A DNA stretch of 64,000 nucleotides from Chytridium lagenaria (lineage: Eukaryota > Chytridiomycota > Chytridiomycetes > Chytridiales > Chytridiaceae), in contig JAHLKC010000009.1 in NCBI GenBank assembly GCA_025449115.1, positions 62,001-126,000 of the forward strand, written 5' to 3'. Below, piece by piece: positions 24,601 through 61,756 of the stretch. The notes below the pieces were generated by a model. That model had not been told where the DNA came from, did no database searches, and was given only the letters and a program-made list of their open reading frames with translations. Position 1 is the first letter of the stretch. The number at the start of each line of letters is the position of its first letter. A program made the position numbers and the translations under genes.

Positions 24601-24622
24601 CAGAAGAGGAAATGATAGATGT

Positions 24623-27291: not shown

Positions 27292-28560
27292 TGATGACGG
27301 CTATGGACACAAATAAATACGTTGTGGAAGCCGTATGAGATGATGCAAAACGGTCGTCCTGAGTAGACTTGTTTTAGAATAGTTATAGATTACAGATGCT
27401 TAATCGCTTTGACTGACGACTCATGCAATTCTACTCGCGGTGAACGTTAACTAAATTCATCGCCCATGATCTTTACTTTTATTTGCACAGTACCGTAAAC
27501 TGCTCTACACATGTATACTCATCATCCTTTGACTTTGTCAAAAATATCGTCATTGGCCACGAGACTCCCTCAATGTTCTAGGGATTATCTGTTTCCTCAA
27601 AACTTCTTTTGTCCTTAGAGTGCTAGTCGATTCATAAACATGCCATATTTCAACGAATGTTTCCGAAAACTTCATTAATTGAGAAAACAAGCGTAGTCTT
27701 TACTTCGTACTTTCAGCATTGTTCCCGTACAATGCGAGGCTGTAAAGAAATATGAAAAAAATAATATGCCGTACGCGACTATAAATGGATGTTAAGGACT
27801 ACGAGGGAATAGACGGAACCATCGCAAATGAAAACTAACCGACTCACCGGATCTTTTAAAAGCAAAACCAAACGCCGTCGCCAAAGTAATCAAATGACCG
27901 TTCTTTAAATATCTAATCGCTTGATCGTATTCGGTACTAGCGTATAATTTGATATCCAGATCTCGTAATCATAAATCGCTGGCGTCAAAATCAGCCGTTG
28001 ATAAGTTCGTCAATAAACTGTAGATATTCAATGACGGTACTTCCCTAAGCCGAACCCGTTGTCTTCAAAGCCTTTATCTCGTCAATCACTCTGTTTTGTC
28101 CTTAGGTTGGATGGCGACAAATTTGAAATGTCAGCCCAGCTTGGCGAGATTATGAGGAATTATATACAACGCCACAGTTTCGGTAAGGATTGTGGTGATA
28201 AACAGTCCAAGAGTGCACCAGAGAGGGCTCAAACCGCTCTGAGAGCTATTTGAGTTTTCTTCGGTTATTGTATCTTAAAAAAAACGCCTTTCAAACAAGG
28301 TCGATGATGACGACGTTCAGTGCGGAGGCGACAAGGATTGAGAACTCCAAGTGGGTACAGTTACTTTCGAAACAAGGGGGATGCAACTTAATTGGGCCTA
28401 CTCCTCCTATTCACGAAAGAACAATACAGGAGGGAGCTCAATCACACGGGATCCACTATCCATTTTACGTCCACTTCACTTTCCATTTGAGACCTCACAC
28501 ACGTTGTTTAGTCGTTGACTGCCATACATCAGGGAATCCCAATATGTTATAAGGTGAGGA
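27292..28560. repeat. Repeat-derived spacer, partner of 60.7-61.5 kb
   Basis: No intact gene. Stretches match the right side in inverted orientation: for example CATCATCCTTTGACTTTGTC (about 27520) with the complement of about 61490-61520, the GGCGTC..GTTGATAAGTTCGTCAATA segment (27980) with the complement of about 61040-61080, and ACCTCACACACGTTG (28492) with the complement of about 60775-60790. Identity is clearly lower than in the gene A part of the arms. Confidence 0.6.
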
Positions 28561-28599
28561 GATGTTTTGCGAGGCTTTTGATGAAGGAGGGGTTGAGAC

Positions 28600-29780
28600 T
28601 TCCGTCAACCATGCAAGTTTTTTGAAAAAAAAATTAAAATAGCAGACTAGTACAAGGCACAAACCTCTCTTCATCATCCACAATAATCGTACTCGAGTAT
28701 ATGGCACTCTCACCGCCTTCCTACACCTGCAAATGCTCGAATTCAAACAGCTCTTTATCATTTCCTCCTTGCCCAATACCCTTACTTTATCTACGTTTTG
28801 CGCCTCAACCAAGCCCCAAAAAACTGAACTGGAAGCCTTGTCATTACCTTCAAAAACCTCCCATCGCATCTTCACTGCTTGACCATTATCACCTCTCACC
28901 ATTTTCTCACTCCCTCACGCGTTTTATTTCCACCACCTATCCCCGAACGTGGAACGAGTCCACATCTAGCTGGTCAGATAACTAGGTAAGGAGCCTGCAG
29001 TTAGGCCACGGTTGGGATGGATGTTGGTGTCAAAGAAGTTTCTAGCACTCATTTTGGAAGGCTACGAAATTATTACGTCAGTTGGATGACGTTTTGGGAC
29101 CATAAAAAGAAGAATTGAAATGCTTTTTGAAGCATCAGCGGAAGGAAAGCTTGCCTCTTTCAATGTTTTAAATATGAGACAGGGAGGAGGTAGAGTAGGG
29201 AATGAAACTTTTGGCAGTGTGTATGATGATGTTTGCTAATGTCAAGCGGACAAGGCTGAAGGAAGGAGAAATATCGCAAATATTAGTCTATTGCCGTTGC
29301 TTACCCTTAGTTTATTGACACGTGAGGATCTACGCCTATTTTTAAGACCACTCCAAAAATTCGATTTTACAGAAAAGTTTAGAAAATCATTTCGGAGATA
29401 GGGAAGATACTAAAAACTCGCGCTATCTATATGTGTTTGGACTTGACAGTTTTCAAAGACGGCGGTTTATGGCCTCTCGGCTGATATTCCATGCTACCTT
29501 GCCAGTGGTTCTGGGTATTCCGGGCTGATGACGCTATATGGGATTAACGTCATAATATAATTACAGGACGGCTGAGTAGATCCGGGTGTGAGTGCGATAT
29601 TGTATTGAGGATATATTATGATGAGATGACGCAGGAGGAGTCGTGGAGGATTTTTAGTATTGCTTAACGCCGGACGAGGAGTATTTACGCGTTATCAAAG
29701 ATTGGGGTCGAGTGGGTAGGCTGGCTGATAAGGAAGGGGGCGGAGAGTGGGGCAGTAAAATTATGAAGGACGTCTAGGAG
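28600..29780 (+). pseudogene. PPR gene remnant
   Basis: Strongly decayed relative of the PPR gene at 24623-27291. It shares the upstream CACCTGCAAATGCTCGAATT-like segment (28727 versus 24785), the region around GGCTGATATTCCATGCTACC (29480 versus 26230), and the end around ACGCCGGACGAGGAGTATTT (29668 versus 27188). Stops occur in all frames. The last half is also found inverted at 59250-59700. Confidence 0.55.
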
Positions 29781-30040
29781 GTAAGTCCCTAATAATTTTG
29801 TTGAGATTCACCCCTGGACAACATACCTGCAAATATCGAAGTTACTGTACCTTGGGATTTCCTCCCGTTCGTAGCAATGATTCTTGTATGACAACGCGGA
29901 GAGTCGCCTCGCTAGGTAATCTACACGTTTATCCGTTGACATTTTCAGCTGTGTATATTCCCTTCCGTATATACTTACTTGTTGTAATTATTGACAACAC
30001 TTACCTAATAAACCACAGTCTTTTCGGACACAACACATAA

Positions 30041-30438
30041 CTACAAACATTTCTCTTTACATGACGCGCGTTTAGAAGCTGAATGAAATGAGAAAAATGC
30101 CCCCTTCTTAAGTTGGCTTAAATCTGTGGTTTCTGGATAATAACAAGGTGTTGGATGAATGAGGGAGATTAGGGGATAAAAGCGCGTGTGTATGGAGGAG
30201 TTTTGGGGTGAAACGAACGTATGTGATAGAAGACAACCTTCATCTGTCTCTTTCAATGGTCGCGGTCCGCGAGACTGCTGAAGAACAAAAAACAAAAAAC
30301 TAGACACACGTCGAGGGGTGGCAAAGCAAATGCACTGAATAGTTATTGGATTTCAATTACATCCAAGACACAAACATTTCAGATCCTATATTCCCGACTA
30401 AAGAGACAAACAGCCCCAATAATTTTTGAAACAACAAG
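30041..30438. promoter_or_regulatory. Upstream region of gene A (left copy)
   Basis: Conserved almost base for base in the right arm (58592-58970). It contains open frames on the opposite strand in both copies, but high identity extends throughout, so no separate gene is called. It presumably includes the promoter and 5' leader of gene A. Confidence 0.35.
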
Positions 30439-33400
30439 ATGCTGCAAACAACTACACCACTCATCGCCGTCGTGATGGCGATGATGCTGTTCATCATCTA
30501 CTACATCCAGGATATCAGCCTTAGCTCATTCTTCATTATGGTTATGAAAACTGCCGTTATGGTTTCCCTTGTCTCAACCGTCGTCGTCATTTCCATGTCA
30601 AGACGTCCTAAGAAGCGACTTCGACGAACCCAAGTGGTGTGTATCTCTCTCTCATTAAACTGCTATTCCACCGCTTCTTCTCTATTCTACCCTTCAATCA
30701 TATGCTTACCACATGTATGCAGGTTTCCCCTCCTGCAGCTGCACGTGAGAGTATTACCCTGGTAAGATTGTTACCTTTTACATCTCCTGAACATCTTTGC
30801 AGCAAACAACCGACCGCGCCTTAGAACCAGACAGCTGTCTACCTCCACTTTCATCATCGCCTCTCCCAACAAGCCCATCCTTTTCAGTGTTTGAACATGG
30901 AGGCCCTGTGGAGGAGGTTTTCGAAGGTTCGTGTGCTTGTATTGAATCCCCGACCCCCACCCACCCCCACACTTCTGACAATTATCCTTACCAACAGCCA
31001 CCCAAACCCCAACCACCACTCCCGAAAACACCATCAATAAGGCGGCCAAGTCCCGTTTCGATGAGTTTGACGACTGGTGTGTCCCTCTTCACCACATTGC
31101 CCCAATCACGGATGCTTACACCCAAGTCAAGTTTGGTCGGTGGAAGATTCCCATTCACAAAGATCTCTCGGAAACCAACGCCAAGTTGGGGTTTTTCCGG
31201 GAGAAAAGGAACAATAAGAGAAAGGGCAGCAATTGGAAGATCTGACGGCAGGATATAGTGGTGTCAAAGGGCTCGACTATCTTTCTTTTGATGGTTGGAC
31301 AGTTTTGCGAAAAGATATTGCTAAATTGAACGAACGGTACACCCCTACGACCTACGGACGATGGGTGGTTCCCATCCGCTTCAATAAAGAGGAAGAAGAG
31401 GAAGAGGATTACTTCAATGGCAGGAAAAAAACATCGGGATATCTTCATGTTTGACCACACTTTTATTAAACTTGTTCTAACAATAATCTCTATAAAGATT
31501 GCAGAATTAGACAGCGATACACCACGAAATTTGAAACTCCGACTCTTGAGCAGATTTCTGCTGCTGCGATCGCCGACGAAGCCCCTAAAGGTAGCGCGTT
31601 CGAAAGTTATAATTGTTTAATTAAAAGCTCCATAAAATCTCACGTTTTTATGTTTTAGACGACGGCTTTAAAGTTACGCCCAACACAACCAAGAAGAAGT
31701 GGCCTAACGACAATACCTTCAGTACTGCAAAACTCGCAAACTTCGAAAGCCCCGTCGCCTCGCCTGCTCCGAAGAACTGGCCCAAAACCAATACCGTTGG
31801 TACTGTGGAACTCGCAAAAGATAAAAAGCCCCATCGCCTTACAGGCTCGCACATATTCCGAAAGGAAGAACTGGGTCCAAAACAATACCGTTAGCACCGT
31901 GAAGCTCGAAAAAGTTGAAAGTCCTATTGCCTCGCATGCTCGCACATACCCCCAAGCCTTTGGTATGCTATCACTTTTTTGAACTTGTTCGTTATTTTTA
32001 ACCATCTACATCTCTCTAACCGCTGATCTTTGCGTCTTCCGTTGTTTTGCTAGAACGTGCGTGTCCCGTTCTCCCGCGTGCAGCTACACCGCCGCTAAAC
32101 GAAATTAGTCTACAAAAAGGTAGCTTACTCCTTTCCTCTTAATTTTATTTGCTGACTTTGTTCAATCAACAGGAAAAGAGAGGGTCTCTGTGGAAGCTAC
32201 ACCACCGAAAAAAGAAATTAGTTTACAAAAAGGTAGGTTACTCCTTTCCTCTAAAATTTATTTGCTGAATATGTGTTCACTACGACAGGAAAGAAAGCGT
32301 CTCTTTGGAAGCAGTTGTTAAAGAAACCACTGTAGAACCAGTTGTTCAGGAAACCACGACATCGACTAGTGCGAACTTTTTCGCCAGCTTGGCGTCAAGC
32401 TCCATTAATTTGATAAAGTCCGCAAGCCCGAGTTTTTTCGGCACCGTTGAGGTTCTTCCATCCACTGGTCCCTCGAAAGGCATGTATCTGATATGATTTC
32501 CTTCATACGCAACTTACACCCCTTCCTCCACAATGTAGATGCCCCTCTTCACAAGGTGCTGACTTGTCACGAAAACGACCACGACTACACGTCCACCTTC
32601 TACCCGTCCCCGTCGAACCTCTCCCTTTCACGGTGTCAAGAGGCCTGGGAATTCGAGCGATATCGTTTGTCGAGGCTCCTTGAACCCGACTATGAATCGC
32701 CTCCTTCCTCCCCGCGCATGACGCCTAACACCACTTTGACCGCGTCAAGCCAAATCGCACAGCCACCCCGGCCGCGCCCTCAACCAGTCCAAGAAGGCAC
32801 ATCCTCTCTTATGACCCTCTTACCGCCCGTGATTTCTACGACCCCCATCTTTTCGTGTCAATGTGTTTTGCATGCGACCCGAAAAACCCGGTGTCTCAGA
32901 ATAACAGCGCTATGGGGGCGCGATCGGTTCAAGCCACCTCTAACGGTGCTAACCAGAGTCTTATGGTACCCGCTCAAAACCAGTCGTCGTGTGGTTGTGC
33001 CTTCCAATGCCGATTGAAATACGTTGAGCCTGCCTCGCGTGGAACCCAAGCTCCTAGGATGCTCACTCAACCCCAGGTTGTGTGTGAGTGCCGATACCGG
33101 TGCATTCCCAAGGCTCCAATTGGCAGCGCTGTTGTGATGTCATCCATTCCTGCTTTACTCGGCTCAAATGGAGCTCCCACAGTTCTCACTGAGCCCCAGA
33201 TGTTGTGCGAATGCCACTATCGGTGCATTCCCAAGTCTCAAATTGGCAGCGCTGTTGTAACATCCTCCATCGGGTCTACCTCGCGCGAAGCCCCAACAAT
33301 GTCCCACGTGGCATCTACATCCGGCGTCTCCACCTCAAGTCAGGATTACAAGCCTACCAGGAGCTTTACTCAACCTAGCAGTGAATTTTTTTCGTCACTC

Positions 33401-33694
33401 TCCGCACCTCCAATGGTTCAGCAAAACCACGCCATCGTTGCTCCAGCTGCTGAGCCTGCCTCGCACAGGGAGAACGGAAGCCTTTTTGCAAGTCTTAATG
33501 CTCCTATCCCCAGTGCGCAAGCTTCTCTCACGAGTTTGTCTGCTCAAGCTCCTCCCGCTGCTCCCGTGTCAGCTCCAGCATGCGCGAGCAGTAGCTTGTT
33601 TGCGTCGCTTTCCCGTGTTCGTCCGGTTGACGACACTGATGGGGAGGTGGAGGAGACCTCCCCTAGCAACCGTCGTCAGCGCCGCCAAAGTTAA
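30439..33694 (+). CDS. Gene A (left copy): unrecognised membrane/cysteine-motif protein
   Basis: Multi-exon gene. The start at 30439 (MLQTTTPLIAVVMAMMLFII) gives one or two N-terminal membrane segments followed by basic SRRPKKRLRR. Next come exons with FDDWCVPLHHIAPITDAYTQ (about 31060) and SGVKGLDYLSFDGWTVLRKD (about 31260), repeats of the RTYSERKNWVQNNTVSTVKL type (31680-31960), short exons ending NEISLQK, and a long final exon with four C-x-C-x-[FYL]-x-C motifs (CQC, CGC, CEC, CEC at about 32855-33225) and SLFASL repeats. Introns of about 50-70 bp are recognisable. Against the right copy, three homopolymers are one base short here (G run at about 31228, A run at about 32292, T run at about 32866), each breaking the frame. 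No family was recognised; a nearly identical copy lies in the right arm. Confidence 0.55.
32075..32300 (+). repeat. Tandem exon+intron repeat (one full unit)
   Basis: A 60-nt exon encoding KERVSVEATPP..EISLQK plus an intron of about 52-60 bp (gtagcttactcctttcctct start) is present once between two partly matching exons. The right copy of gene A has two such units (56650-56935). Confidence 0.85.
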
Positions 33695-34020
33695 TGAAGG
33701 TAAGAAGAGTAGATTAATATTTCCATTCCTATATATCATTAAGCACCATGCTAACTTTTTTCAACAGTTCGAATAACGCAGAAAAAACACTCTCTACCTT
33801 TTTTATTTTCATCATCCTTTGTTATGTCAAAATATCGTTCGTATCATCGGCTATGCATGGAACCCGTTTAGCCGAACAACTCTCTATTGTTTTATCGTAT
33901 TGTTGATTTTGTAAATTCTTCACGCCCTTCATTTGTTTTATGAACCCTTCCCATATTGATTTTGAATTACCAATCCCATTTTGGAAAGCCACATTATTAA
34001 GAAAGATAGCCTTTGTTGTA

Positions 34021-34621
34021 TTTAAAGTATTGTTCAAAAGAGCTTCACATGAATACGAAGTAGCGACGTTCTATATCACTAGCGCATGCTTTGTAAAATA
34101 TAGTCGAGTCGAAATATAGGGTATGGTTTTGGCGGTTAGGTAGACAGACAGAGACAACCTGAGGGGGGTGATCTGTAACCCAGCTAGGACGGTGACAATG
34201 AAATGTTGGCAATATTAGACGTTTTTTTTGCTACAATCTTTAGCTCCAATCTTGGAAAGCAAAAAGTGTAAAAATATGAACGAAAAAAACCCTGGAGCCT
34301 GTTCTTTTTGGGCAAAATCCTCATATTAACCGAGTTTAGACGATATGAGGGTAATGCTCTTAAAACGGATATTTCACAGGAGCATCAAATTCCACATTCA
34401 TGAGCGAACAAAATAAACGAACAAAACAAATAAAATGTTGAAGAACAGAAAGACTTTTGTTTCAGAGAAGTTCAACTTAAACACCACCAAAAAAGGAACC
34501 ACATTGAAAAGTAAAAATGGGTGTAAAGAATAAAAAAAAAAGTAAATTGCGTTAAGTACAGACTTTACCCAAGACAGATAAATGTTGAATGATGGAACTA
34601 TGATGATGAATGGAAAAGAGT
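34021..34621. other. Junction between left arm and gene island
   Basis: No gene was recognised. AT-rich sequence after the abrupt end of arm homology; the last part is the 3' flank of the choline-transporter-like gene. Confidence 0.5.
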
Positions 34622-36540
34622 TTAAACCATCACAACGGTGCTAGCGAAGCCAGAGTTAGGGTAAAGCCCGCTCACGCTCTCAACAAGCTCAGGGCGAGTA
34701 TAGCTCATGGCAACAGGGTCCTCGGCACTTTGCGTAAAAGAAATAAGTTTTAGTACAAATACAATACCGAAAGCATAAAAAAATACAACAATATAATGAA
34801 AACTTACAGGCACACAAAAGTAGCTGCCGAACCCGCTTCAAGAATCGACGCAATCATCGACATGCAATCCCACAAACAAACGTAAAGACCGCTGTGATCG
34901 CAAACATCGGTGCGAGTCCGCTGGTCAAAGGTACACCAAGATAAACACAGAGGGAATACCAACAGCGATTCCGTGGAACAAGACAACACTAAAGACGCAG
35001 GAGAAGATGGCAAACTTGGATCCAGCGTCAGTAACGACAACGTCAGACCACGTTCCTTGAAGAGAGAGAAGGTGGCTTTAGCGCTGGTGCAGTAGTCCTC
35101 GCCGTAGATGGCGACGTAGGTGAAGGCGTATTGTTAAGGAATTGGAGAAGATCTTTGAAAATACTCAGGAGACACTTGAAGCAACAAAAGAGTAAGGAGA
35201 TAAGCCTAGACAGAGGATAGTGAGAAACGAATTTTGTTTTCTTCACCACTCACCCATTGTTTCCGGAAACAGTGTCTCCTTCAGACTTTTGAATAATAGC
35301 TTGAAGCCACGACAAAAGAGCAATGACCAAACTTCCAAAGCAAATACTGCCGAAACTAGGACCGAGTGCACGCTGGCAGCAGCTGTGACGGGGCGACGGA
35401 TCGCGACCGTAATCTTACCATCCTCATCGGGAACACCAGTAAGATGGTAAGTGGCAAAGACGCCACCCAGAGTAACATTGACAACATTGTTGATCACCTC
35501 AGAGGTCCAAAGCTGTAAGGCAGGTGAATAGGAGGATATTAAAGTTAGACATTTTCCAACGAGCCCAAGATATACAGAGTTGAAGTATCTTACCATAGAG
35601 AACAAAAGGTAGAAGTAGACAGCAATGAATGGACCCCACATCACATCCTTTTGCGCATCCTTTTGCCGAAATACGCCAAAGAGGAGAAGTGCTGCGAGAA
35701 AGGCAAAGAGCCACAAGACAGTAAAGACAAGGCGAACAGCAGCAGCAACGATACCGACGGTAGCCATGCCAGGAGAAGATGCAACGACATCAAGGACGGC
35801 ATCAAATAGCTTTTAATGACGAGGTCCCGCGGTACCACTTGTAAGTGACAAAGCAAGAGATCAAAGCAATGATCCCGTAGAATATCGCACCGGGGCCAAT
35901 TTTGCATAACGACGAAAAAGAGCAAAAAACGATGACCATGAAAATAGAGAGGATGGTAGAAGTTATCTTCATAACGTTGGAACGAAAGCGGATGAGAAGC
36001 CAGTAAAACGCAGCAGTTGTTGCAATACTGGAAAGGATGATGACCATGGGAGACCAATGACTTGCGTGGTGGTGGGCTCCCAGTCCCACTTTGGTTGGTT
36101 AGGGTTTGGCATTGGAGACGGGACGGTGGTGATGGCGACTTCGCTGCGAATGACAGAGCTAACCCAGCCATTTTCAGGTGATGGCGACGGCGACGGCGAC
36201 GGAGCGGGAGCGGGGCTTCCATTGCGAATAAGAGCTAGGCCGAGGTACACGGAAAAGATGCCAAAGACACTGAAAGCGCCAGTTATGGCCAAGTGGATGA
36301 AGAAGAGAACAGAGAAGATGTGGTCCTTCTTTGCAGAATCGGAGCAAACCACTTAGGGTTGACCACTGGCCTTCCTTCTTCCGCTTGGTTGAGCAAAGGC
36401 TGTGACTCTGAAGAGATAGATGCCCGAGCTTCTTCGTATGCTGGAGGAGCACCAGCATTGCGATGATGCTGATGCTGTTTGCTGCTTTGGAAGTTGTGGT
36501 TTGAACATGACTTTGCTTTATCCCCAAAGAACTAGGCAAG
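34622..36540 (-). CDS. Choline transporter-like (CTL/SLC44, Pns1-type) membrane protein
   Basis: CTL/SLC44 proteins are polytopic membrane proteins for choline-like substrates; yeast Pns1 is the fungal member, of uncertain transport role. Seen in order: a polar cytosolic N-terminus with AGAPPAYEEARASISSESQP (about 36400-36460), a first membrane helix (FSVLFFIHLAITGAF, about 36310), an extracellular Pro/Ser-rich loop, several further helices, the family-typical WTSEVINNVVNVTLGGVFAT (about 35480) with ATYHLTGVP after it, YVAIYGEDYCTSAK (about 35090), and a C-terminal hydrophilic tail ending at TAA 34622-34624. Introns are evident at about 34733-34806, 35110-35240 and 35510-35590. A frame change near 36350 separates the tail with PPAY from the first helix, and the exact start exon (acceptor tgcctag at about 36535) is unresolved. 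Confidence 0.7.
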
Positions 36541-36823
36541 CGTTTTGGACCTTTTATATGGAAAGTATTGTGTAACAATTGTAAGGCAATTTGTGCTGCC
36601 TTGGGTTTCGTTTTGCAGACTGGGACCTTGCACACCGCCTCAAAATCCAATTGTAATTCCATAAAGGAATCGACGTAGTAAGACTTTAAGTTAAATAAAA
36701 GTAAAAATAAATAATAATATTTAAATCTTCTATAAAATGTATGTAAATCGTTCAGTATGCACTTTAGATCACCCTTGATGGTTGAGTGCAGCATTCGACG
36801 AGGACGCAGATGTAGGCACGTTA

Positions 36824-37834
36824 TTACTCGAGTTTGAAGGCCGGAACCTCACTCCAACCATCACCCAGCACGACATCACCCTCTCTGCATAAGGAAATAT
36901 GCGTACTCCTCACAGCATACCGCACCTTATCACCACGGGTCAACATCAGATCCTTGCAAGAATTTGACTTGACCAGCAGCGAAAACATCTTGGACGGGTG
37001 AAGTGTAGTAAATTGACACGGAAATCCCTATATAGTTTGCAAGAGGATGATTACCGCGCATTAGAGCAAGGATACTGAACGAGATATATCTCTAACCTTA
37101 AATGTACATCCCTCCGGTATAGTCCTCTTTACAGACTCCTGAAAATCCATCCCTGCCATCCCCTCCACATTCGCCCACGCCGAACCTCCCATTCGATCCC
37201 CCACTCCCTGCGCGAAGTAATCTCCCCATCTCGCACCCCCAAAGGCACTGCGAAAAGAGTCTGCTGATATCGTCATCCCAAAGGCATCGCATATCGTAAT
37301 CTTCGCGAAAAGCGGCGATCTGCTGCTTTAATATAGACTCCAGGTCCTCCTCGTGAATGGACAGACTCTGGGATGGTGGAGATTTTGGTGATGATGCTAT
37401 AGACGTCATTTGAAATGGTAGAATAGGAAAGTTGATTTCGGCGGTACGTCTATAGAGTATTAAGTAATAGGTCGTCAGAACCAAATTGATGGTGTTAAAG
37501 CAAGCCGGTACCTTCGTGACATTGCAGCAGCATCTTTCGGAATAGGCTTCCACACCCAATCCCTCGCCAAATCGAAGTCCAGTCCCTTCACCGAATCCGT
37601 CACATTCGCGTTCGCATAGAACACTTCATGGCTGAATAAGCATCCCACCGTTCTATACCCATGGGCCTCCACATCCTTAGCCAGCCATCGCGTCCCTAAC
37701 ACAGGATCCCAGAACTCTACAACTCCCATGCTCGATATGGTCGTAACCCACGCCGCCGCTTCTGATGTTTTTGAGCTGCCAAGTGTCATGTACGCATTTA
37801 AAGAGAGCCCAAGAAGAAGACTGGTGAGGAGCAA
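36824..37834 (-). CDS. Secreted protein, family unrecognised
   Basis: The start at 37834 gives a signal peptide (MLLTSLLLGLSLNAYMTLGS) followed by AAAWVTTISSMGVVEFWDPV and VFYANANVTDSVKGLDFDLA with one N-glycosylation sequon (N-V-T). After one or more introns (donor at about 37514, acceptor at about 37450) the frame ITICDAFGMTISADSFRSAF..GGARWGDYFAQGVGDRMGG runs to CTFKV (about 37100). The last exon encodes CKDLMLTRGDKVRYAVRSTH..CREGDVVLGDG and ends TAA at 36824-36826. The product is roughly 230 residues with a few cysteines. It sits head-to-tail with the CTL gene, about 290 bp apart. Two overlapping frames at 37200-37440 make the middle uncertain. Confidence 0.5.
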
Positions 37835-38130
37835 AGCGTGACAGTGGGTGGCAGTTTTGAAATCGTCAAGATGGTTTGTAATGAGTGCCAGATATCAGTT
37901 CTTAGATATAAAATTGTTAAAACGATGCTCTGATGATTTCGTAAATTTACTCTGTATTTCCTAATCCTCTCCTCTTTTCTACGCCAATGAGCGACACAAA
38001 GCGCGCCGCGTGTCTAGGGCTTTCTATGTATCTACCTAGTCCAGTAAATAAGAAAGAAAAGGTAAACTAAGTCCATAAATCGCTTAGAAAGTCAAACAAG
38101 AAAATAACCATATAAACAATAATAGAAGAG
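37835..38130. other. Intergenic spacer
   Basis: Short AT-rich spacer between the secreted-protein gene and the 3' end of the C2-domain gene; no feature recognised. Confidence 0.5.
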
Positions 38131-39048: not shown

Positions 39049-39153
39049 ACCCTTATGCAATTCCCCGCTAAACGATTTTGAGAGTCTAGAGTTTCTCAGT
39101 CCCTTCAAATCCGATTCCGATCGACTATGAAACTTTTAGTTATTTAAAACGCA

Positions 39154-39437: not shown

Positions 39438-39641
39438 GACCCAAATCCAATCGATGCACCACTCGCACCGAAGGCTGAACCCCCTTAACAGCTTTTTTCT
39501 GGAAACGACGTATGTGTATCTCCGTTGTCAACAACCCTCAGCAGATTAACACCTCGTGGCTGTATATGAGAGATTGTCCGAACCACAGATCGTTTCTGAT
39601 ACAAATTTTTGAAGGAGCAGGAGGCTTTGATCTAGCAAAAC
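39438..39641. promoter_or_regulatory. Divergent promoter region
   Basis: The 204-bp gap between the starts of the 70-residue protein gene (minus) and NMA111 (plus) must contain both promoters. No individual site can be assigned. Confidence 0.4.
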
Positions 39642-44972: not shown

Positions 44973-45004
<32 letters not shown>

Positions 45005-49808: not shown

Positions 49809-52788
49809 ATGCATCGTCTCACCTCCTTTTCGTCAAACAACCTCAATGCTTTGAATCATCCCTCCACCTCATCACCATCATCATCATCATCATCATCACC
49901 ATCACCATCCTCATCCTCACCATCCTCAACCCATCAACGTACCCAATCTCACGACTCTTTTCAACCAAACTACCCCATCGTCCCTGCAAATTGGGGTGAA
50001 CCTTCTTCCAACACCTCCTCCTCAAACTATGACCTCCACATGCATCACCCTCAACCCACCTCTCACACCTCATCGTCATCATCAACATGGGAAGTCTACG
50101 GTCTAACCCGTCCCATGCCCCATCAAATCCACAGTGCACCTTCCTCCCCTCCACCCAGTCATCACCATCACCACCATCATCACCATCACCAACAACATCC
50201 TCACCATCGCACAAGGAGCTCTAGCGTCAGTTCTGCAAACTCTACAAACTCGCATTTCACAAGTCAATCTGCGCCTTACAATGCCTCAAAACTCGCTCAT
50301 GACCCTTACAATGACGCTCCTTCTCCCGTTTCCTCTGAGCAGCATTCGTCAAACTCAAACACTCCTACTCCTCCACCTCCTGGAATATCTATCCCTAAAT
50401 CCATGGCTGGTGCTCGAACCGTCTACGTTACCAATCTCGGTACCAAGGACAAGGTATACATATATATTTTAGTTTTTTTGCTTTTTCTCAATTCCACCTT
50501 TGAACCCTTTTTTTTTTTTGGACCTCTTGACACCCTTTCGTTTTCTATAACCTCTGATTATTTTGTTTTCTAATATGTTTTTTTTATTATTATAAAGGCC
50601 GACTTGAAAGCTCTGTGTCAAACCCTTCCCGGTTTCGTTCGCGTCCAATTCGGACAGACCAATTTCAGGGTGGTTCTAAAGGATGGAGAGCATGCCAAAG
50701 AGGCCATGAACAGGATCTTGACCGCACAGAAAACGTTCAAGGCAAGTTTTGCGAGAAAGGAGCCTGAAGAGAAAAAGATTGAAGAATTGGGTGAACCTTC
50801 AAAGGTAATTAAAGAAAAAAGAGGTTATACTTTAATGTCCTAAAAAACCACATGGCACTTACATTCACCAAATGAATACAATTAACTTTGATTGTCACAG
50901 GTTCTCTGGACGTCCACCCTCTACTGGACTGAACCCGAATTCCGCAAATACCTCACCACAACCTACGAGGGTTTTGACCGTCTCGTCTTTGATTCTGCCC
51001 ACTCCTGGGTCCACTTTCGCGACGTCCCAACCGCCAAACGCGCTCTCGAAGACATGAACTCCACCACAAACCTCTACAGCGTCTACTCGAAAAATTTGAC
51101 CGAGAAACCGGCAACGTTATCCCACATCACCAACAAGTCCAACACCACACCACACCGAAACCACCAAGCGCTCCAAACACACCACCCATGAAACCCGTTC
51201 AGGTGGTGGTTCGAACCGTCACTCCACCCGTGTTGCCGAAACCCGCTGAACGCTTCCCAACCACCATCCCTGCTGTGTCGCCTCGTCCACATCAGGTGCT
51301 TCGTCATCAGCAGTTACGGAAGTTTGCGTCACACGGGAGTTTCCCTGGCGCTACGGGGTGGGAATGCGTTTAATCGATTCGAGCAGTGGTCGGAACCCAC
51401 CAATGTCTTGTATCTCCGGTCCCCGCCTGACATGGATCTGAGGGGATTGTTTCAACGACTCCCCGGGTTTCTGAATCTTCACATCAACCCACCCACTCAC
51501 CCTGCTGGTGTTTATGTGAGGTTTACGAGCATCACGGCCGCGCAGAATGTCATGGAGAGCAGTGACGTGAAGGAGATGTTGGGAACCGTAGAGTACCGAA
51601 GTTTAGAAGACGAAGACATGCGAGGGTTCACGACGCAACGTGATGACACCACACCGCTTGTAAGGACCTTGTCTCAACCTAGTCTTGCGACGCTATCGCA
51701 GCCGAACCTTGGGAGGGAGTTGTGGGGGAAGACGGGGACGGGGTTAGGGTTTTCGACGGGGGAATGGAGCGAGGAGTGGACGGGGAGTGGGAGTGATTGG
51801 AGTGCTGGGGTGGCGTCACCGGTCTGGGGGGTCGTCGACGGTGGTGGGGTCACCTTTTGGGACGAGGAGGGGGGAGGATTTGTGGAAGTTGGGACCGAGT
51901 GCGGCGCCTTATTCGGCGTTTGAGTTTGGAGCGGGGGGGTTGGGTGGACAAGGACAGAGAAAGGTATGTCTTGCTTTTTATTTTTTTTTTTTTTTTTTTC
52001 GGGTGGATCTTTTTGTTGGGAATGAGAGTTGATCAATGTTATTTTCTGGTTGTTTTTTTTCGGTGGATTTTTGTTTGGAATGAGAGTTGATCAATCTCTC
52101 TATCATTCTATACTTTTCCCCTTGCAACTCCTTCCTGCATTATTCTTTTTAATTTTCGAGTGCTTTTATCTCTTATCCTTCTGCACTCTTTCTGCACTCT
52201 TTCTGCACTCTTTCTTGACTCTTCTTTCGTTTTTCGCGAGAAAGAGAATCGTGTTTTTTCCCCAACCCGTTTTTTTCCGATATTGACCATCATTCTTTTT
52301 CCACAACAGTGGCTCGACGATTTTGACGACCCCAAAGACTTTTCCGTCGAATCCCTCATCGACGACACCTCCTCCCCGGACCCCAAACCCTCCCTCTTCC
52401 CCCAAGACCCCACGATCCTCTCCCTCCCCCGTTCCACCTTCAACCCCGACGCCTCAACCTTTATCCCAACCTCCCTCCCCCCCATCGGTCGTCACCAACG
52501 TCTCTGGTCCTCGCCCCCGTCCTCCCCGCTGCGACCGTTACCGCGGAACGCGTCGGCGCCGAATCTGGAACGACTCTCGATGCTGCCGAGGGAGACGATG
52601 GAGGAGGTGAGGGAACGGCTTGTGGGGCTGAGAGGGAGGTGGAGAGGATTGTGGAGATGGTGAGACGGGGGAGACCTGAGTTGGAGGAGGTTGGGGAGGT
52701 GGAGGGGAGTGGGGAGAGGACGGCACCGCTTTTGGAGGGGCTTTTGGGACGGGCTGTGAGGATGGTGAGGGCTTTGGTGGATGAGTGA
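49809..52788 (+). CDS. RNA-binding protein with three RRM-like domains
   Basis: The ATG at 49809 begins a Ser/Pro/His-rich disordered region with a run of ten histidines (about 50160-50190). RRM 1 starts ARTVYVTNLGTKDK, is interrupted by an intron (about 50455-50598) and continues ADLKALCQTLPGFVRVQFGQ. RRM 2 (about 50900-51090) follows another intron with VLWTSTLYWTEPEFRKYLTT and SWVHFRDVPTAKRALEDMNS. RRM 3 (about 51390-51590) reads TNVLYLRSPPDMDLRGLFQR and VYVRFTSITAAQNVMESSDV. The RNP motifs are weak, so binding may be atypical. After an intron with a T20 run (about 51965-52310) the last exon encodes WLDDFDDPKDFSVESLIDDT and a coiled C-terminus ending VRMVRALVDE, TGA 52786-52788. One-base frame steps lie near 51120-51330 and 52600. 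Confidence 0.65.
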
Positions 52789-53870
52789 AGTGTGGATGGT
52801 GAGGGCTTAAGTGGATGAGTGAATTCTTACTTTTCTCCTGTGTTTGTGTTACCAACGGGTTTTTTTTTTGAGGTTGCCGTTGCTATCTTCCCCACCACCT
52901 TCCTTTTTTTTGGAGGTTGCCGTTACTATCCTCCCCACACCTTCGTTTTTTTTTGAGGTTGCCGTTACTATCCTCCCCAGCCCTTTCTTTTTTTTTTTTG
53001 AGGCTGCTGTTGTAATCCTCACCACCCCCCTTCCTTTTTTTCCCTCGTTTTGTGCACATCCTTTTTTTTCCTTTACGTTTCTTTTTTTGCGATTGGGGGT
53101 TCTGCCTTTTCCCCATATTGAAGGTCGCCCCCTTTATTTCTGTTTCTCGTACGTGCGCAGTCCTTTAATCTTTTCTTTTCCTTTCTTTTTTTTTCTTTAC
53201 ACACCCAAATCTTTTACCTATAATGTCTACCCTCCCCTTATCACTCATCCTCAAATGTTCTATGGAACCGTTGCCTTTTCTTCTTTTTCTCGGGTCTTTC
53301 ATTCTTTTCATAGACTTTTTTTTTTAGACCCCCCATAGTTCTTTTTTTTGGAACAGTTTTATTTCTGTTTGTTGCCTATGCGCATACCTCTTTTTTTTTA
53401 TCTCTGGTTAACTCCTCTTTTTTGCCCTATGCGCAGACTTTTTTACACCCCCTGAACTGTTGCCGTTTTTTTTTTTAATAGATTTTTTGTTTGGTTTATG
53501 GTGAGTTTTTTTTGGATGTGGGGTCGGATTTTTTTTTTTTACACTTTATGAGTGAAAGCTTTGGGAGTCTGCGAATATCTTGGTATGTCTGCACTTTAAG
53601 GATTTGATTTTGGTAGATTGTTTCCATCTGATGCTTGGGATGTACGGATTCTTCAAATTTATTGTCCCATTCTTTTCTGGGGGGAAGGTGCGTTAAACTT
53701 GCATAACTCTACCACAAAAAACAAAAAAAAAGGTTTTGTTGTTGTAACCCTTTTTGGTTTTTGGGTTTGGTTTAGAATATGAATGAAATCCATGCACCAA
53801 TTTACCGTCTGTCTTGATCCTTTTCTTTCCGCGATTCATATGTTTTCGTATAGACTGATTGAACGCAATA
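52789..53870. other. T-rich 3' flank of the RRM gene
   Basis: Long pyrimidine-rich segment with many T runs, including the minisatellite at 52860-53050. Phe/Leu-rich frames here reflect T runs and are not called as genes. Confidence 0.6.
52860..53050. repeat. Minisatellite of about 48 bp, four copies
   Basis: Four head-to-tail units, each a T run followed by GAGGTTGCCGTTACTATCCT (or a close variant) and CCCCA(C/G)..CC. The last copy is the most diverged. It lies about 70 bp beyond the stop codon of the RRM gene, so it is probably transcribed as 3' UTR. Confidence 0.85.
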
Positions 53871-54054
53871 TTCGTTCATTCCGTAAGTTTTGTACACGTG
53901 CAAACAAAACACCCTCAATCAGCTGCGTCTAGCATGGTGATCCAGCCCAGTTGTTGTCTGGTATGGATCAGGTTCGATTCGTTCAGACGACAGCAAGATG
54001 GATGGGTCCTCGACTTTCTTTTTCTTTGCAAAATTGAAGATGCGAGCAAACCAA

Positions 54055-54345
54055 TAACGTTTGCGTTCCTTTACGCCATGTCTTGTCACGTTTCCAACAT
54101 TGCGGGTGTTTCATCGTACACTGCGGAATATACTACCGGAATGCTTTTTTTTAATGGTACTCTGATCCCACTGACTTTCAAGCGCTAGCGGAAAAAGGCA
54201 AACAACGTTGCTCCCCTTCACGCTATGTCTCGTCACCCTTCCAACATTGTGGGTGTTCCATCGTTCACCGCGGAATACGTAAGAGCATAGGACTACCGGA
54301 ACGCTTTTTTATATGGTGCTCCGATCCCACCGATGTTTAGTGCAA
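54055..54345. repeat. Direct duplication of about 125 bp
   Basis: 54057-54180 and about 54205-54335 are imperfect direct copies: both contain CGCCATGTCTTGTCAC or CGCTATGTCTCGTCAC, CCAACATTG(C/T)GGGTGTT, CGCGGAATA or TGCGGAATA, ACTACCGGAA(T/C)GCTTTTTT, and GATCCCAC(T/C)GA. The spacing is about 148 bp. No coding role was recognised. Confidence 0.8.
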
Positions 54346-54912
54346 ATAAGGACGAATCATGGTGCCATCGATCTCGATGGATTATATACGGGAGTGTTCA
54401 GTCCCTATCGCGTCCATCTTTTCCCGGGCTTTATCAATCATCGCGTCAATGATACACACTTTATCGTCAACATGTTACATTGATTCTGGAGGGTTTTGAA
54501 CCCTCTCAAGTCTCCCGTTCTACTTGATATACGTTTGCCATCATCACCCCTGTTCTTCTCACAGCAACTAGGACGGATATGACGATTATTGAACTCACCT
54601 TATTTTGGGCTTATAAAACCGCACCCATGTTTCGATTCGACCAACGAGATTCGCTGGGAAAAGTGGTGGAATATCGTTAAGATTACCCGAACTTATGGTT
54701 TCGAGTTAATTACGAGCATGCTTGTCGCCGAAAGTGTATAATGGCGGGATCTGGCTGTTAAAACATGAAAGGTGATTATCAAGAATTCAAAGCGCGGTGA
54801 TATTAATCTATCTCATCCTCTTCGGTTCCGGACGGTAGATAAAAGCGTCTGGATTCATGTGTTCGCTGGGAGACTACTTTATATCGTTACGTTGATGCAT
54901 TTACTTCCAGTC
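54346..54912. other. Decayed sequence before the right arm
   Basis: Short coding-like scraps (for example ILIYLILFGSG and SVWIHVFAGRL around 54790-54880) without starts or recognisable family. Arm homology begins at about 54913. Confidence 0.4.
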
Positions 54913-55235
54913 CCAACAAATACTATGTTTTTAATAATGGAGCTTTCCAAAACAATCATTAATTTACAATCAATATGGGAAGGGTTCATAAAAAGGATGG
55001 CGTGAAGAAATACACAAACATCAATACCATAAAACAATGGGGAGTTGTTCGGCCAAACGGGATAACATGCATACCCCGAAGATACGAACGATATGTTGAC
55101 ATAACAAAGGATGATGAAAATAAAAAAGGTAGAGTATTTTTCTGCGTTATTTTTTAGTGGCCCGTGCTATTGGAAAGAGTTAGCATAATACTTGATGATA
55201 GGTATGGAAATACTAATCTATTCTTCTTACCTTCA

Positions 55236-58200
55236 TTAACTCTGGCGACGCTGACGACGGTTGCTAGGGGAGGTCTCCTCCACCTCCCCATCAATGTCGT
55301 CAACCGGACGAACACGGGAAAGCGACGCAAACAAGCTACTGCTCGCGCATGCCGGAGTTGACACGGGTGCAGCGGGAGGAGCTTGAGCAGACAAACTCGT
55401 GAGAGAAGCTTGCGCACCGGGGATAGGAGCATTAAGACTTGCAAAAAGGCTTCCGTTCTCCCTGTGCGAGGCAGGCTCAGCAGCTGGAGCAACGATGGCG
55501 TGGTTTTGCTGAACCATTGGAGGTGCGGAGAGTGACGAAAAGAATTCACTGCTAGGTTGAGTGGAGCTCCTGGTAGGCTTGTACCCCTGACTTGAGGTGG
55601 ATGTAGATGCCACGTGGGACATTGTTGGGCTTCGCGCGAGGTAGACCCGATGGAGGATGTTACAACAGCGCTGCCCATTTGAGACTTGGGAATGCACCGA
55701 TAGTGGCATTCGCACAACATCTGGGGCTCAGTGAGAACTGTGGGAGCTCCATGTGAGCCGAGTAAAGCAGGAATGGATGACATCACAACAGCGCTGCCAA
55801 TTGGGGCCTTGGGAATGCACCGGTATCGGCACTCACACACAACCTGGGGTTGAGTGAGGATCCTAGGAGCTTGGGTTCCACGCGAGGCAGGCTCAACGTA
55901 TTTCAATCGGCATTGGAAGGCACAACCACACGACGACTGGTTTTGAGCGGGTACCATAAGACTCTGGTTAGCACCGTTAGAGGTGGCTTGAACCGATCGC
56001 GCCCCCATAGAGCTGCTAATCTGACACACTGGGATTTTCGGGTCGCACGCAAAAACACATTGACACGAAAAGATGGGGGTCGTAGAAATCACGGGCGGTA
56101 AGAGCGTCATAAGAGAGGATGTGCCTTCTTGGACTGGTTGAGGGAGCGGACGGGGCGGCTGTGCGATTTGGCTTGACGCGGTCAAAGTGGTGTTAGGCGT
56201 CATGCGCGGGGAGGAAGGAGGCGATTCATAGTCGGGTTCAAGGAGCCTCGACAAACGATATCGCTCGAATTCCCAGGCCTCTTGACACCGTGAAAGGGAG
56301 AGGTTCGACGGGGACGGGTAGAAGGTGGACGTGTAGTCGTGGTCGTTTTCGTGACAAGTCAGCACCTTGTGAAGAGGGGCATCTATATTGTGGAGAAAGG
56401 GGTGTAAGTTGCGTATGAACGAATCATATCAGATACATGCCTCTCGAGGGACCAGTGGATGGAAGAACCTCAACGGTGCCAAAAGAAATCGGGCTTGCGG
56501 ACTTTATCAAATTAATGGAGCTTAACGCCAAGCTGGCGAAAAAGTTCGCACTAGTCGATTTCGTGGTTTCCTGAACAACTGGTTCCACAGTGGTTTCTTT
56601 AACAGCTGCTTCCACAGAGACCCTTTCTTTTCCTGTTTCAGTGAACAAAGTCAGGAAATAAAATTAAGAGGAAAGGAGTAAGCTACCTTTTTGTAGACTA
56701 ATTTCGTTTAGCGGCGGTGTAACTTCCACAGAGACCCTCTCTTTCCTGTTGATTAAACAAATCAGCAAATAAAATTAAGAGGAAAGGAGTAAGCTACCTT
56801 TTTGTAGACTAATTTCGTTTTTCGGCGGTGTAGCTTCCACAGAGACCCTCTCTTTTCCTGTTGATTGAACAAATCAGCAAATAAAATTAAGAGGAAAGGA
56901 GTAAGCTACCTTTTTGTAAACTAATTTCGTTTAGCGGCGGTGTAGCTGCACGCGGGAGAATGGGACACGCACGTTCTAGGAAATCAACAAAGACGCAAAG
57001 ATCAGCGGTTAAAAAGATGTAGATGGTTAAAAATAACGAACGAGCTCAAAAAGTAATAGCATACCAAAGGCTTGGGGGTATGTGCGAGCATGCGAGGCAA
57101 TAGGACTTTCAACTTTTTCGAGCTTCACGGTGCTAACGGTATTGTTTTGGACCCAGTTCTTCCTTTCGGAATATGTGCGAGCCTGTAAGGCGATGGGGCT
57201 TTTATCTTTTGCGAGTTCCACAGTACCAACGGTATTGTTTTTGGGCCAGTTCTTCGGAGCAGGTGAGGCGACGGGGCTTTCGAAGTTTGCGAGTTTCACA
57301 GTACTGAAGGTATTGTCGTTAGGCCACTTCTTCTTGGTTGTGTTGGGCGTAACTTTAAAGCCGTCGTCTAAAACATCAAAACGTGGATTTAATGGGATTT
57401 TTAATAAAACAATTATAACTTTCGAACGCGCCCGCCTACCTTTAGGGGCTTCGTCGGAGATTGCAGCAGCAGAAATCTGCTCGAGAGTCGGAGTTTCAAA
57501 TTTCGTGGTGTATCGCTGTCTAATTCTGCAATCTTTTAAGAGATTATTGTTAGAACAAGGTTAATAAAAGTGTGGTCAAACATGAAGATATCCCGATGTT
57601 TTTTTTTCCTGCCATTGAAGTAATCCTCTTCCTCTTCTTCCTCTTTATTGAAGCGGATGGGAACCACCCATCGTCCGTAGGTCGTAGGGGTGTACCGTTC
57701 GTTCAATTTAGCAATATCTTTTCGCAAAACTGTCCAACCATCAAAAGAAAGATAGTCGAGCCCTTTGACACCACTATATCCTGCCGTCAAGTCTTCCGTT
57801 TGCTGCCCCTTTCTCTTATTGTTCCTTTTCTCCCGGAAAAACCCCAACTTGGCGTTGGTTTCCGAGAGATCTTTGTGAATGGGAATCTTCCACCGACCAA
57901 ACTTGACTTGGGTGTAAGCATCCGTGATTGGGGCAATGTGGTGAAGAGGGACACACCAGTCGTCAAACTCATCGAAACGGGACTTGGCCGCCTTATTGAT
58001 GGTGTTTTCGGGAGTGGTGGTTGGGGTTTGGGTGGCTGTTGGTAAGGATAATTGTCAGAAGTGTGGGGGTGGGTGGGGGTCGGGGATTCAATACAAGCAC
58101 ACGAACCTTCGAAAACCTCCTCCACAGGGCCTCCATGTTCAAACACTGAAAAGGATGGGCTTGTTGGGAGAGGCGATGATGAAAGTGGAGGTAGACAGCT

Positions 58201-58591
58201 GTCTGGTTCTAAGGCGCGGTCGGTTGTTTGCTGCAAAGATGTTCAGGAGATGTAAAAGGTAACAATCTTACCAGGGTAATACTCTCACGTGCAGCTGCAG
58301 GAGGGGAAACCTGCATACATGTGGTAAGCATATGATTGAAGGGTAGAATAGAGAAGAAGCGGTGGAATAGCAGTTTAATGAGAGAGAGATACACACCACT
58401 TGGGTTCGTCGAAGTCGCTTCTTAGGACGTCTGACATGGAAATGACGACGACGGTTGAGACAAGGGAAACCATAACGGCAGTTCATAATCATAATGAAGA
58501 ATGAGCTAAGGCTGATATCCTGGATGTAGTAGATGATGAACAGCATCATCGCCATCACGACGGCGATGAGTGGTGTAGTTGTTTGCAGCAT
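55236..58591 (-). CDS. Gene A' (right copy): unrecognised membrane/cysteine-motif protein
   Basis: Same exon order as gene A (30439-33694), in inverse orientation. Here the exon around GGVKGLDYLSFDGW is joined in frame to the exon before it (57790), and the C-x-C-x-F-x-C motif at about 56060 is intact, unlike the left copy. In exon 1, two nearby deletions (2 nt and 1 nt, at about 58440-58490) replace about 18 residues of the membrane region and restore the frame. The final exon is one C short at about 55628, switching out of the Ser/Ala-rich frame that ends RRQRRQS in the left copy, and nine nucleotides are missing nearby. One repeat exon (about 56700-56755) has 59 instead of 60 nt. So neither copy is intact as assembled. 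Confidence 0.55.
56650..56935 (-). repeat. Tandem exon+intron repeat (two full units)
   Basis: The motif agctaccttttTGTA(G/A)AC recurs at 56681, 56792 and 56904, a period of 111-112 bp made of a 60-nt exon (KERVSVEATPP..EISLQK) and a 52-bp intron. One unit more than in the left copy. One exon copy is 59 nt because an A run is one base short. Confidence 0.85.
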
Positions 58592-58970
58592 CTTGTTTTT
58601 CAAAAATTATTGGGGCTGTTTGTCTCTTTAGTCGGGAATATAGGATCTGAAATGTTTGTGTCTTGGATGTAATTGAAATCCAATAACTGTTCAGTGCATT
58701 TGCTTTGCCACCCCTCGACGTGTGTCTAGTTTTTTGTTTTTTGTTCTTCAGCAGTCTCGCGGACCGCGACCATTGAAAGAGACAGATGAAGGTTGTCTTC
58801 TATCACATACGTTCGTTTCACCCCAAAACTCCTCCATACACACGCGCTTTTATCCCCTAATCTCCCTCATTCATCCAACACCTTGTTATTATCCAGAAAC
58901 CACAGATTTAAGCCAACTTAAGAAGGGGGCATTTTTCTCATTTCATTCAGCTTCTAAACGCGTCATGTAA
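58592..58970. promoter_or_regulatory. Upstream region of gene A' (right copy)
   Basis: Counterpart of 30041-30438 with very few differences. It presumably carries the gene A' promoter. An open frame on the plus strand is present in both arms but has no protein-like support. Confidence 0.35.
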
Positions 58971-59249
58971 AGAGAAATGTTTGTAGTTATGTGTTGTGTC
59001 CGAAAAGACTGTGGTTTATTAGGTAAGTGTTGTCAATAATTACAACAAGTAAGTATATACGGAAGGGAATATACACAGCTGAAAATGTCAACGGATAAAC
59101 GTGTAGATTACCTCAGCGAGGCGACTCTTCCGCGTTGTCACACTAAGAATCATTGCTACAAACACGGGAGGAAATCCCAAGGTACAGCAACTTCGATATT
59201 TGCAGGTATGTTGTCCAGGGGTGAATCTCAACAAAAATTATTAGGGACT

Positions 59250-60540
59250 TACCTCCTGGACGTCCTTCATAGTTTTACTGCCCCACTCTCCGCCCCCTTC
59301 CATATCAGCCAGCCTACCCACTCGACCCCAGTCTTCGACAACGCGTAAATACTCCTCGTCCGGCGTTAAGCAATACTAAAAACCCTCCACGACTCCTCCT
59401 GCGTCATCTCATTATAATATCTCCTCCATACAATATCGCACTCACACCCCGATCTACATCAGCCGTCTTGTAACATGTTATGACGTTAATCCCATGTAGC
59501 GTCATCAGCCTCGGAAAACCCAGAGCCGCGAGCAGCATTGTATGAGATAAGCGACCGACTCTCCTCCAAAACAAGTCCAAATACGAATGGTCAGCTCGAG
59601 TCTTCTGTATATTTCCTATGATTCCCAAAACGATTCGTAACTTTTTTGTGAGAAATAGTAGAAGAGCCTTTTGTGACAAAAAAACCAAGGTTAAAAGACA
59701 AAACTAGACTGTATTTTCCAGGCTGCTCTTTTTCGTGATATGTATCCTTCCTTTAGCCATCAAACCTCTTCTCTTGTGATACGAAAGCATCATCATATCA
59801 CGTCCAAAAGCGTCTTTCGAAACTCCAGCTTCTCCGTCCTTTTACGCTAACACTATAATATCTGCCTCTAATCTTCGCATATTCCATTCACTTATAGAGG
59901 CAATATTCCCTTCTGCTGATACGAGGGACGAAACTAGATTGTGTTTGAAGGGCCCCCTCTTATCTCTGATATTCATCCTTCCTTCAGCCATCAACCTCCT
60001 TCTCCTCTTGTCGTACGAAAACATAATCATAAACAATCCAAAAGCCTCTTTACCAGCTCCACGTCTTCCGTTCTTTTACGCTAAAACTACGATCTTTGTC
60101 TTTGACTCTCAGAGGCACTAAGACGGTATCAACGAGAATTTTCTGATGCCAGTCAATTGCATCGGTGATGGCGTTTTGCTGACGAATAGGCTTTTATAAG
60201 GGTCCCAATATTCAGCTTATGTCATAACAAAAAGAAAGAGCTTTGAACCCAATCTTCCCATTCATTACCTTATTTGTGCGATCGAAATCCAAACTCGAAG
60301 CTTTATCATCCAACTCTTTAAACATCTCCTGAACCTTATTCAGATCGCCAGAATTGCATTTTCAGACGCTGTTTTAAACAGAAGCGCTTTCGATACGGCA
60401 TATTCCACCTCAACCCACTCTCTTTTTTATCTGATAAAGGTGAAAAAGTTCAAGCGACGGAGACGCGACGGGAGGGGGTTTGTTTAGGGTGAGGGTGTTT
60501 ATCGGTAGGGAGGTATTTGAAGTCGAGAATTTGCAGGTAT
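59250..60540 (-). pseudogene. PPR gene remnant (right arm)
   Basis: Inverted, decayed counterpart of the PPR remnant at 28600-29780 and of the PPR gene at 24623-27291. A recognisable piece is the MFMIMFSYDKRRRRLMAEGR stretch (60036-59975), equivalent to VMFAHYKRRKGLIAEGRNDI at about 25945. The GGCTGATGACGCTACATGGG region at about 59510 is equivalent to 29525 and 26280. Multiple stops in every frame. Confidence 0.6.
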
Positions 60541-61756
60541 GGGAGGGTGGCGAGAGTGCTATGTCCTCGATTACGATTGTAGTGGATGATGAAAAGAGCC
60601 TTGTTAATGTAGTAGTCTGCTATTGTTTTTTTTTCAAAAATATATATGGTCGTATATATTTGAAGAAAAAAATTAAACGGAGTCCCCACCTCCTTCACCA
60701 AAAGCCTCCGTCGCTCCTCACCTTTCACCATATACGGATTCCGTGCTGTCTGGTAGTCAAATAAATGTTAGCAACGTGTGTGAGGTCGTAAACGAGACTG
60801 TGGATCGAGACGTATGACTGAGTTCCTTCCTTTATTGTTCTTCTGTGAATACGAGTAGGTCCAATCAAGTTCCATCCCCCTGTAATCGCACAAACATGGT
60901 CAATAAAAGCTGGTTCAGCATGCCACAAGCTATCGGACCCGACCATGCATAAAGTTCCATGAAAGGGTCGACGAGACAACGGCTCTGCGGACGGAGGTTC
61001 TACTTAAAATTATCTCGTCATATTTGAGCACCATATAGTTATTGACCAACTTATGAACGACTATTTCGACGCCAGGGATTTATAATTGCGAGGTCTGAGT
61101 GTCAATTAAAAGTTGACGCCAAACATCATCAAGCTTTTAAATATGTGAAGAACGAGTTGTTCGGTTACTTTGGCGACGTCGTTTTTAGCTACGACGATGC
61201 TGTATAATGACCTGATGAGTCCATAATTTTAATTTGAGATGCCTTTGTATATGTCCCCAGACTCCATTAGCACCTTTCGGTTTCGGACAGCATTGTTTAT
61301 TTTTTCTCTTTCTCATACTTCTTTATCGCCGCGCATCATCATTTTGTTTTTTATGTTGAGGTAATATTTATTTACGGGAGGGCGTGCTTATGAAACGACG
61401 AGCCTTCCAAAAGACAGAGGATGTTGTATAAAAAAACAAAATTACTTACTACAAAAGACGGAAGTCTGGCGGCTTTGGCAATTCGTAGACATCATGATAT
61501 TTTGACAATGTCAAAGGATGATAAGAAGAGGAATATACATGGAACAACATCGTGCAAACAAGAGGAAGGAATATGGGGGATGAAATATGTTGCATTAAGT
61601 GGCTATCGTCGGACTTGTTGAGCGGCAGTTTGGCCGCAGTGGAACAATGGAACGAAGTGAGGTACGTTAAATATTGTAGAAAACCAAATTATATTTACCT
61701 CAATTACTTTCATTATCAATTCTCAAGTTCCAATCTCCGTACCTCTTCCCTTCCCT
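60541..61756. other. Outer, diverged part of the right arm
   Basis: Collinear with 27.5-28.6 kb in inverted orientation but with low identity. No gene recognised. Confidence 0.5.

Follow-up and report, generated by a model that had tools for sequence, protein, structure and literature searches.

Published accounts, in the excerpts on which we draw, describe several inverted repeats whose arms interact. In Caenorhabditis, long inverted repeats carry paralogous gene pairs, and gene conversion has been proposed as the means of their upkeep (PMC1803023). The arms of the human Y palindrome P6 are homogenised by conversion, with inversion as a rare outcome (PMC3723533). In the yeast Hansenula/Ogataea polymorpha, a flip/flop system places ~18–19 kb between inverted repeats that recombine together (PMC4238957, PMC5720833, PMC5701183). 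Here we describe a locus of the aquatic chytrid fungus Chytridium lagenaria in which two inverted arms enclose an island of 20.9 kb. The window, by which we mean the whole analysed stretch of 64,000 nucleotides, comprises bases 62,001–126,000 of one contig (C9, JAHLKC010000009.1; 465,921 bases) in a genome assembly of 41.9 Mb on 356 contigs (GCA_025449115.1), and the locus lies in the interior of that 466-kb contig. Our preferred reading, to which we give a probability of roughly 0.8, is an inverted segmental duplication whose outer part has decayed and whose core, occupied by an orphan gene that we call gene X, has been partly homogenised by conversion from arm to arm. The arms and the island are as follows:

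26233..34018, + strand: left arm, whole extent, probable source copy (mirror-order inverted matches to 62115-54914; outer part z 19.8)
54914..62115, - strand: right arm, whole extent, probable derived copy (mirror-order inverted matches; outer part z 19.8)
29507..34018, + strand: highly alike part of the left arm, consisting of the core (29507-33720; 106 of 4191 ungapped columns differ) and an inner edge at 83%
54914..59527, - strand: highly alike part of the right arm, from alignment to the left arm
34019..54913, no strand: island of 20,895 bp, without a second copy in the genome search

The initial annotation had proposed that two arms, reverse complements of each other, flank a gene island. 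This was borne out by self-BLAST of the window and by aligning its two sides at higher sensitivity, which returned the same two strong matches: 29,510–32,311 against 59,524–56,723 (inverted, 96.6% over 2,818 columns) and 32,082–34,018 against 56,835–54,914 (inverted, 92.7% over 1,952 columns). Self-BLAST also confirmed the inner ends at 34,018 and 54,914, and with them the 20.9-kb extent of the enclosed island. Beyond the strong part, inverted matches of 69–83% continue in mirror order and reach 26,233 on the left and 62,115 on the right. When blocks were aligned globally and compared with 30 dinucleotide shuffles, the outer arms scored z = 19.8. The block next outward was at chance level (z = 0.7), with no mirror-order homology beyond 26.2 and 62.1 kb, and so were the first 2 kb inward of the arms (z = -1.7). 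The outer ~3 kb of the arms are decayed, yet colinear, and identity rises sharply at 29.5 kb. The outer ends originally placed at 27.45 and 61.52 kb fall inside this decayed part and have to be redrawn, with the strong match starting from 29.5 and 59.5 kb and weak homology extending to 26.2 and 62.1 kb. A few matches depart from mirror order (24,728–24,835 with 60,594–60,487, and 26,241–26,296 with 59,545–59,489); we read them as one copy of a PPR gene pairing with the other PPR copy. The two arms, colinear, inverted and paralogous on one contig of one assembly, are thus a single duplication of 7.8 kb on the left and 7.2 kb on the right, in which high similarity survives over just the inner 4.5 kb.

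Identity along the arms is uneven. Between the core (29,507–33,720) and its mirror, 106 of 4,191 ungapped columns differ (2.5%, or 97.5% alike by mismatches); the inner edge, 33,761–34,018, differs at 42 of 250 columns (83% alike), and windows in the outer part range from 35% identity, which is chance level, to 78%. The differences within the core are clustered, with tracts of zero difference adjoining stretches at 5–9%. Tracts of 688, 449 and 199 ungapped columns are free of mismatches, the 688- and 449-column tracts crossing introns and intergenic DNA, and none of 10,000 shuffles produced a tract of 688 columns (largest, 583):

30542..31232, no strand: longest tract without mismatches (688 ungapped columns), covering exons and three introns of modelled gene X and containing three short indels
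29889-30339 (449) and 30341-30540 (199), no strand: further mismatch-free tracts, from the arm alignment

In the core alignment this patchiness is independent of coding status. Introns 1–3 of the gene X model differ at 0 of 55, 0 of 50 and 0 of 72 columns, introns 5 and 6 at 6 of 68 and 8 of 87, and the intergenic stretch at 29.9–30.3 kb is without mismatch while several exons differ. Because the identity is patchy, we infer that the patches were caused by gene conversion between the arms. The earlier suggestion that the arms could recombine is therefore supported in the form of conversion.

Gene X is the sole gene of the core, and its two copies and the tandem units within them are as follows:

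30439..33694, + strand: gene X, left copy, orphan, intron-containing (from reading frames, splice-like sites and codon constraint; ends and exons modelled by eye)
55236..58591, - strand: gene X, right copy (mirror coordinates; same basis as the left copy)
32082..32312, + strand: tandem unit of ~112-117 bp with exon ends and an intron, 2 copies, left arm (self-BLAST)
56608..56947, - strand: tandem unit of ~112 bp with exon ends and an intron, 3 copies, right arm (period 112, 3.0 copies)

By the exon model, gene X spans ~3.3 kb with several introns; its N-terminus looks hydrophobic by eye, both copies point toward the island, and a 109-bp repeat unit differs between the arms. Across four exon pieces comprising 624 codons, with the other exons left out of the count, we found 19.5 nonsynonymous differences at 1,435 sites and 18.5 synonymous differences at 437 sites (pN 0.014, pS 0.042, pN/pS 0.32; Fisher p = 0.0014 on rounded counts). 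Constraint has thus acted on the reading frame of gene X, and both copies are presumably expressed.

Seven of the eight arm-to-arm indels that fall in modelled gene X exons have lengths not divisible by three, and 18 more lie outside the exons. Pseudogenisation of gene X by frameshifts was considered and not accepted, as the frame is constrained and island genes also carry frame breaks. Breaks that leave no room for an intron occur twice in the NMA111 gene, once in the CEP76 gene and once in the choline transporter gene (the last two derived from coordinate arithmetic); a third break in NMA111 could be a 40-base intron and was left out of the count. These breaks in three conserved island genes (34807–43743) suggest one-base assembly errors, with real frameshifts possible too, and the frameshifts in gene X are therefore weak evidence of decay. 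A frameshift seen in this assembly may reflect a sequencing error.

We found no Pfam domain on the gene X strand of either arm and no relative of gene X in two PDB searches. A 171-aa piece (28 candidates) and a 278-residue region (1,484 candidates), used as queries in protein database searches, also returned no relative; these searches were limited by length and shared words, and they missed even any protein of the organism itself for gene X. Within the genome, one gene X exon matches two loci outside the arms, on contigs C184 and C112, at 28–29% identity, and these loci are ~95% alike each other; a second gene X piece matched in the arms only. The distant paralogues on C184 and C112 adjoin tandem arrays with periods of ~95–102, 197 and 373 bp, whose lengths differ between the two contigs. 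The segments compared (C184:20001–50000 and C112:16001–46000) are colinear over 30 kb, of which ~21 kb falls in blocks at 94–97% and the remainder is of lower identity and partly repeat-rich. They probably represent either haplotypes that were not collapsed or an extensive segmental duplication; as haplotypes, they would be alleles.

The outer part of the arms contains PPR sequences, which bear on the origin of the duplication:

25530..27198, + strand: PPR-A, PPR gene cut by the outer duplication boundary at ~26.2 kb (PF01535 above cut-off; PF13041 and PF13812 below)
28619..29750, + strand: PPR-B, decayed second PPR copy, left arm, right end set by eye (homology to right arm 60640-59500)
61708..62115, - strand: remnant of the 3' part of PPR-A, right arm (inverted homology)

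The right arm holds the second PPR copy, whose stretch 60640–59500 also matches PPR-A, and of PPR-A it keeps just a remnant, from the 3' part. PPR-A itself crosses the ~26.2-kb boundary on the left side only. The duplication ends inside PPR-A, and since this gene runs on past that end only at the left, the left arm probably served as the source copy. In the sequence of events that we propose, a block of ~7.8 kb, made up of the 3' part of the PPR gene, the second PPR copy, and gene X with its 3' flank, was duplicated in inverted orientation ~21 kb away and placed between the island and a RAD23-like gene. The outer part of the arms then decayed, while non-reciprocal gene conversion, acting repeatedly between the arms, probably kept the gene X core partly alike.

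Searches of the genome returned no further DNA copy of 29,400–34,100 outside the two arms, and none of 24,200–29,500 apart from a 45-base match on another contig (C65). With the island as query (34,300–54,200; 39 of 76 candidates scored), none of the 51 matches listed covers more than 92 bases, 50 of them lie in repeat-rich sequence at 49.1–50.0 kb, and no second copy was found. The lack of a long second match to the island argues against amplification or a second island haplotype in the assembly.

A core at 97.5% beside a decayed outer part, with the sharp rise at 29.5 kb between them, could also have arisen in two steps, by an early inverted duplication that covered the PPR region and then a recent second event that added a new copy of the gene X core, without any continuing conversion. 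A single recent copy predicts an even spread of differences, whereas those in the core are clustered, with 688 and 449 columns at zero beside stretches at 5–9%, and we consider this history unlikely. Purifying selection on gene X as the only force upholding core identity would agree with the pN/pS of 0.32 over 624 codons. Such selection is a disfavoured and highly improbable account, since introns 1–3 and the intergenic DNA at 29.9–30.3 kb are free of mismatches beside exons that differ, a pattern for which selection on the protein does not account. Another possibility is an artefact in which diploid alleles were joined as arms. Elsewhere in the assembly, haplotypes seem to have stayed uncollapsed (the C184/C112 blocks, at 94–97%, resemble the core), and one-base frame errors seem to be present in single-copy genes. 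However, the outer arms diverge far more than the C184/C112 blocks, yet form one inverted series, so the arms are not explained as haplotypes; in addition, neither the island nor the left flank, from 24.2 kb on, gave a second copy in the searches, no further core copy appeared among the matches, and we regard such a joining as very unlikely. Judged from the assembly alone, it is also unlikely that the second arm is an assembly duplicate, because the 106 core columns, the 109-bp repeat unit and the outer part all differ between the arms.

A pair of transposons was rejected as the origin of the arms, as no other DNA copies were found in the genome search and no transposase-type Pfam domain was detected on the arm strands scanned (one per arm). 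The initial annotation had also raised a breakage-fusion event and a hairpin-prone locus. A breakage-fusion palindrome would be a near-perfect fold-back with little spacer or none, or would come with amplification; here the spacer is 20.9 kb long and without a second copy found, nothing indicates amplification, and the locus lies in the interior of its contig, all of which speaks against such an event. Given the same spacer, a hairpin-prone locus seems implausible. Recombination between the arms might instead invert the island as a programmed switch, like the flip/flop mating-type switching of methylotrophic yeasts, and the inverted arms, the highly alike core and a spacer near the 18–19 kb of Ogataea would all suit this role. 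Such a switch is highly improbable: Pfam detected no mating-type gene in 34.1–53.8 kb of the island (six-frame scan, introns and frame errors not removed; the + strand excluding 53,803–54,913), and no second orientation was seen in the one assembly available. The one strand scanned per arm likewise gave no mating-type family, in scans that intron-split exons may escape. Flipping of the island, which had been suggested from its arms, is possible, and nothing in this analysis shows it. There is only a slight chance that conversion is accompanied by flipping frequent enough for the gene X copies to alternate neighbours and regulation; if so, the island would act as an inversion switch, in a chytrid and not in a yeast.

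Several points weigh against an inverted duplication with conversion between its arms. The evidence comes from one assembly alone. Only two sequences were compared, with no outgroup by which to orient or date the conversion. The shuffle test presumes an even mutation rate, and the limits of the core were chosen after its profile had been viewed. The mismatch-free tracts contain one- and two-base indels, which we attribute for the most part to errors of assembly. One core may also have been replaced in a second, more recent partial duplication. Finally, the genome search scores the best candidates only and skips very common words, which leaves the absence of further copies unproven, and its queries were the left arm side and the island, the right outer arm not being among them.

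The genes of the island and its right flank are as follows:

34807..35396, - strand: choline transporter-like domain PF04515 (Pfam)
36844..38985, - strand: CEP76 homologue with C2, peptidase-like and C-terminal domains (Pfam)
39642..43743, + strand: NMA111-type HtrA serine protease (Pfam PDZ_1; protein search)
46787..47693, + strand: Pet127, at least over this stretch (Pfam, 8e-53)
62917..63963, - strand: RAD23-like gene flanking the right arm on its outer side (XPC-binding and UBA pass their cut-offs, ubiquitin falls short)

Pfam matches agree with the choline transporter, C2 (the CEP76 homologue), NMA111 and PET127 genes first predicted for the island; for the predicted RRM or R3HCC1-like gene, the sole support was an RNA_bind match below its cut-off. 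In a protein search, NMA111 matched a C. lagenaria protein (99% identity, 54% of the query region), and two related chytrids, Dinochytrium kinnereticum and Irineochytrium annulatum, likewise have an NMA111 protein. Just past Pet127, at 47001–49000, G strongly exceeds C (skew of 0.45, then 0.72), and an acidic, glycine-rich reading frame lies under this region (48083–48829). On the left flank, + strand frames at 15.3–25.2 kb gave no Pfam match, and scans of the window for tRNA genes and Rfam families gave none. Farther left, tandem repeats lie inside open frames at 3420–3662 (45-bp unit, 5.5 copies) and 4548–4863 (30-bp unit, 10.5 copies). An inverted pair of ~250 bp, 89% alike, lies near and across the window start (window 1–104 and C9:60851–62104) and is possibly a small mobile element.

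Inverted duplications with conversion between their arms are already known, and this instance comes from a group that has received little study. Among the matches listed in the open-licence literature, as far as the text of those sources was available, we found no report of this C. lagenaria locus or of inverted-arm conversion in chytrids. If conversion is confirmed, the locus would show how far arm-to-arm conversion can reach across a spacer, 20.9 kb in a chytrid, and the decayed outer arms would provide a built-in yardstick of age.

Compared with the systems described above, again as their excerpts present them, the likeness to Caenorhabditis lies in inverted homologous gene pairs and in arms that are alike in both coding and intergenic DNA; there, spacers of 126 and 414 bp separate the arms and the comparison is between species, whereas here the spacer is 20.9 kb, the core alone is alike, and one species was studied (PMC1803023). 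The human Y palindrome P6 offers a looser likeness, inverted arms homogenised by conversion; the human Y palindromes are more than 99.9% alike from arm to arm and lie in the male-specific Y, whereas here the core is 97.5% alike and the outer arm has decayed (PMC3723533). Ogataea polymorpha has a region of comparable size between its inverted repeats, and differs in that the island of C. lagenaria holds no mating-type gene that we could find and gives no evidence of inversion (PMC4238957, PMC5720833, PMC5701183).

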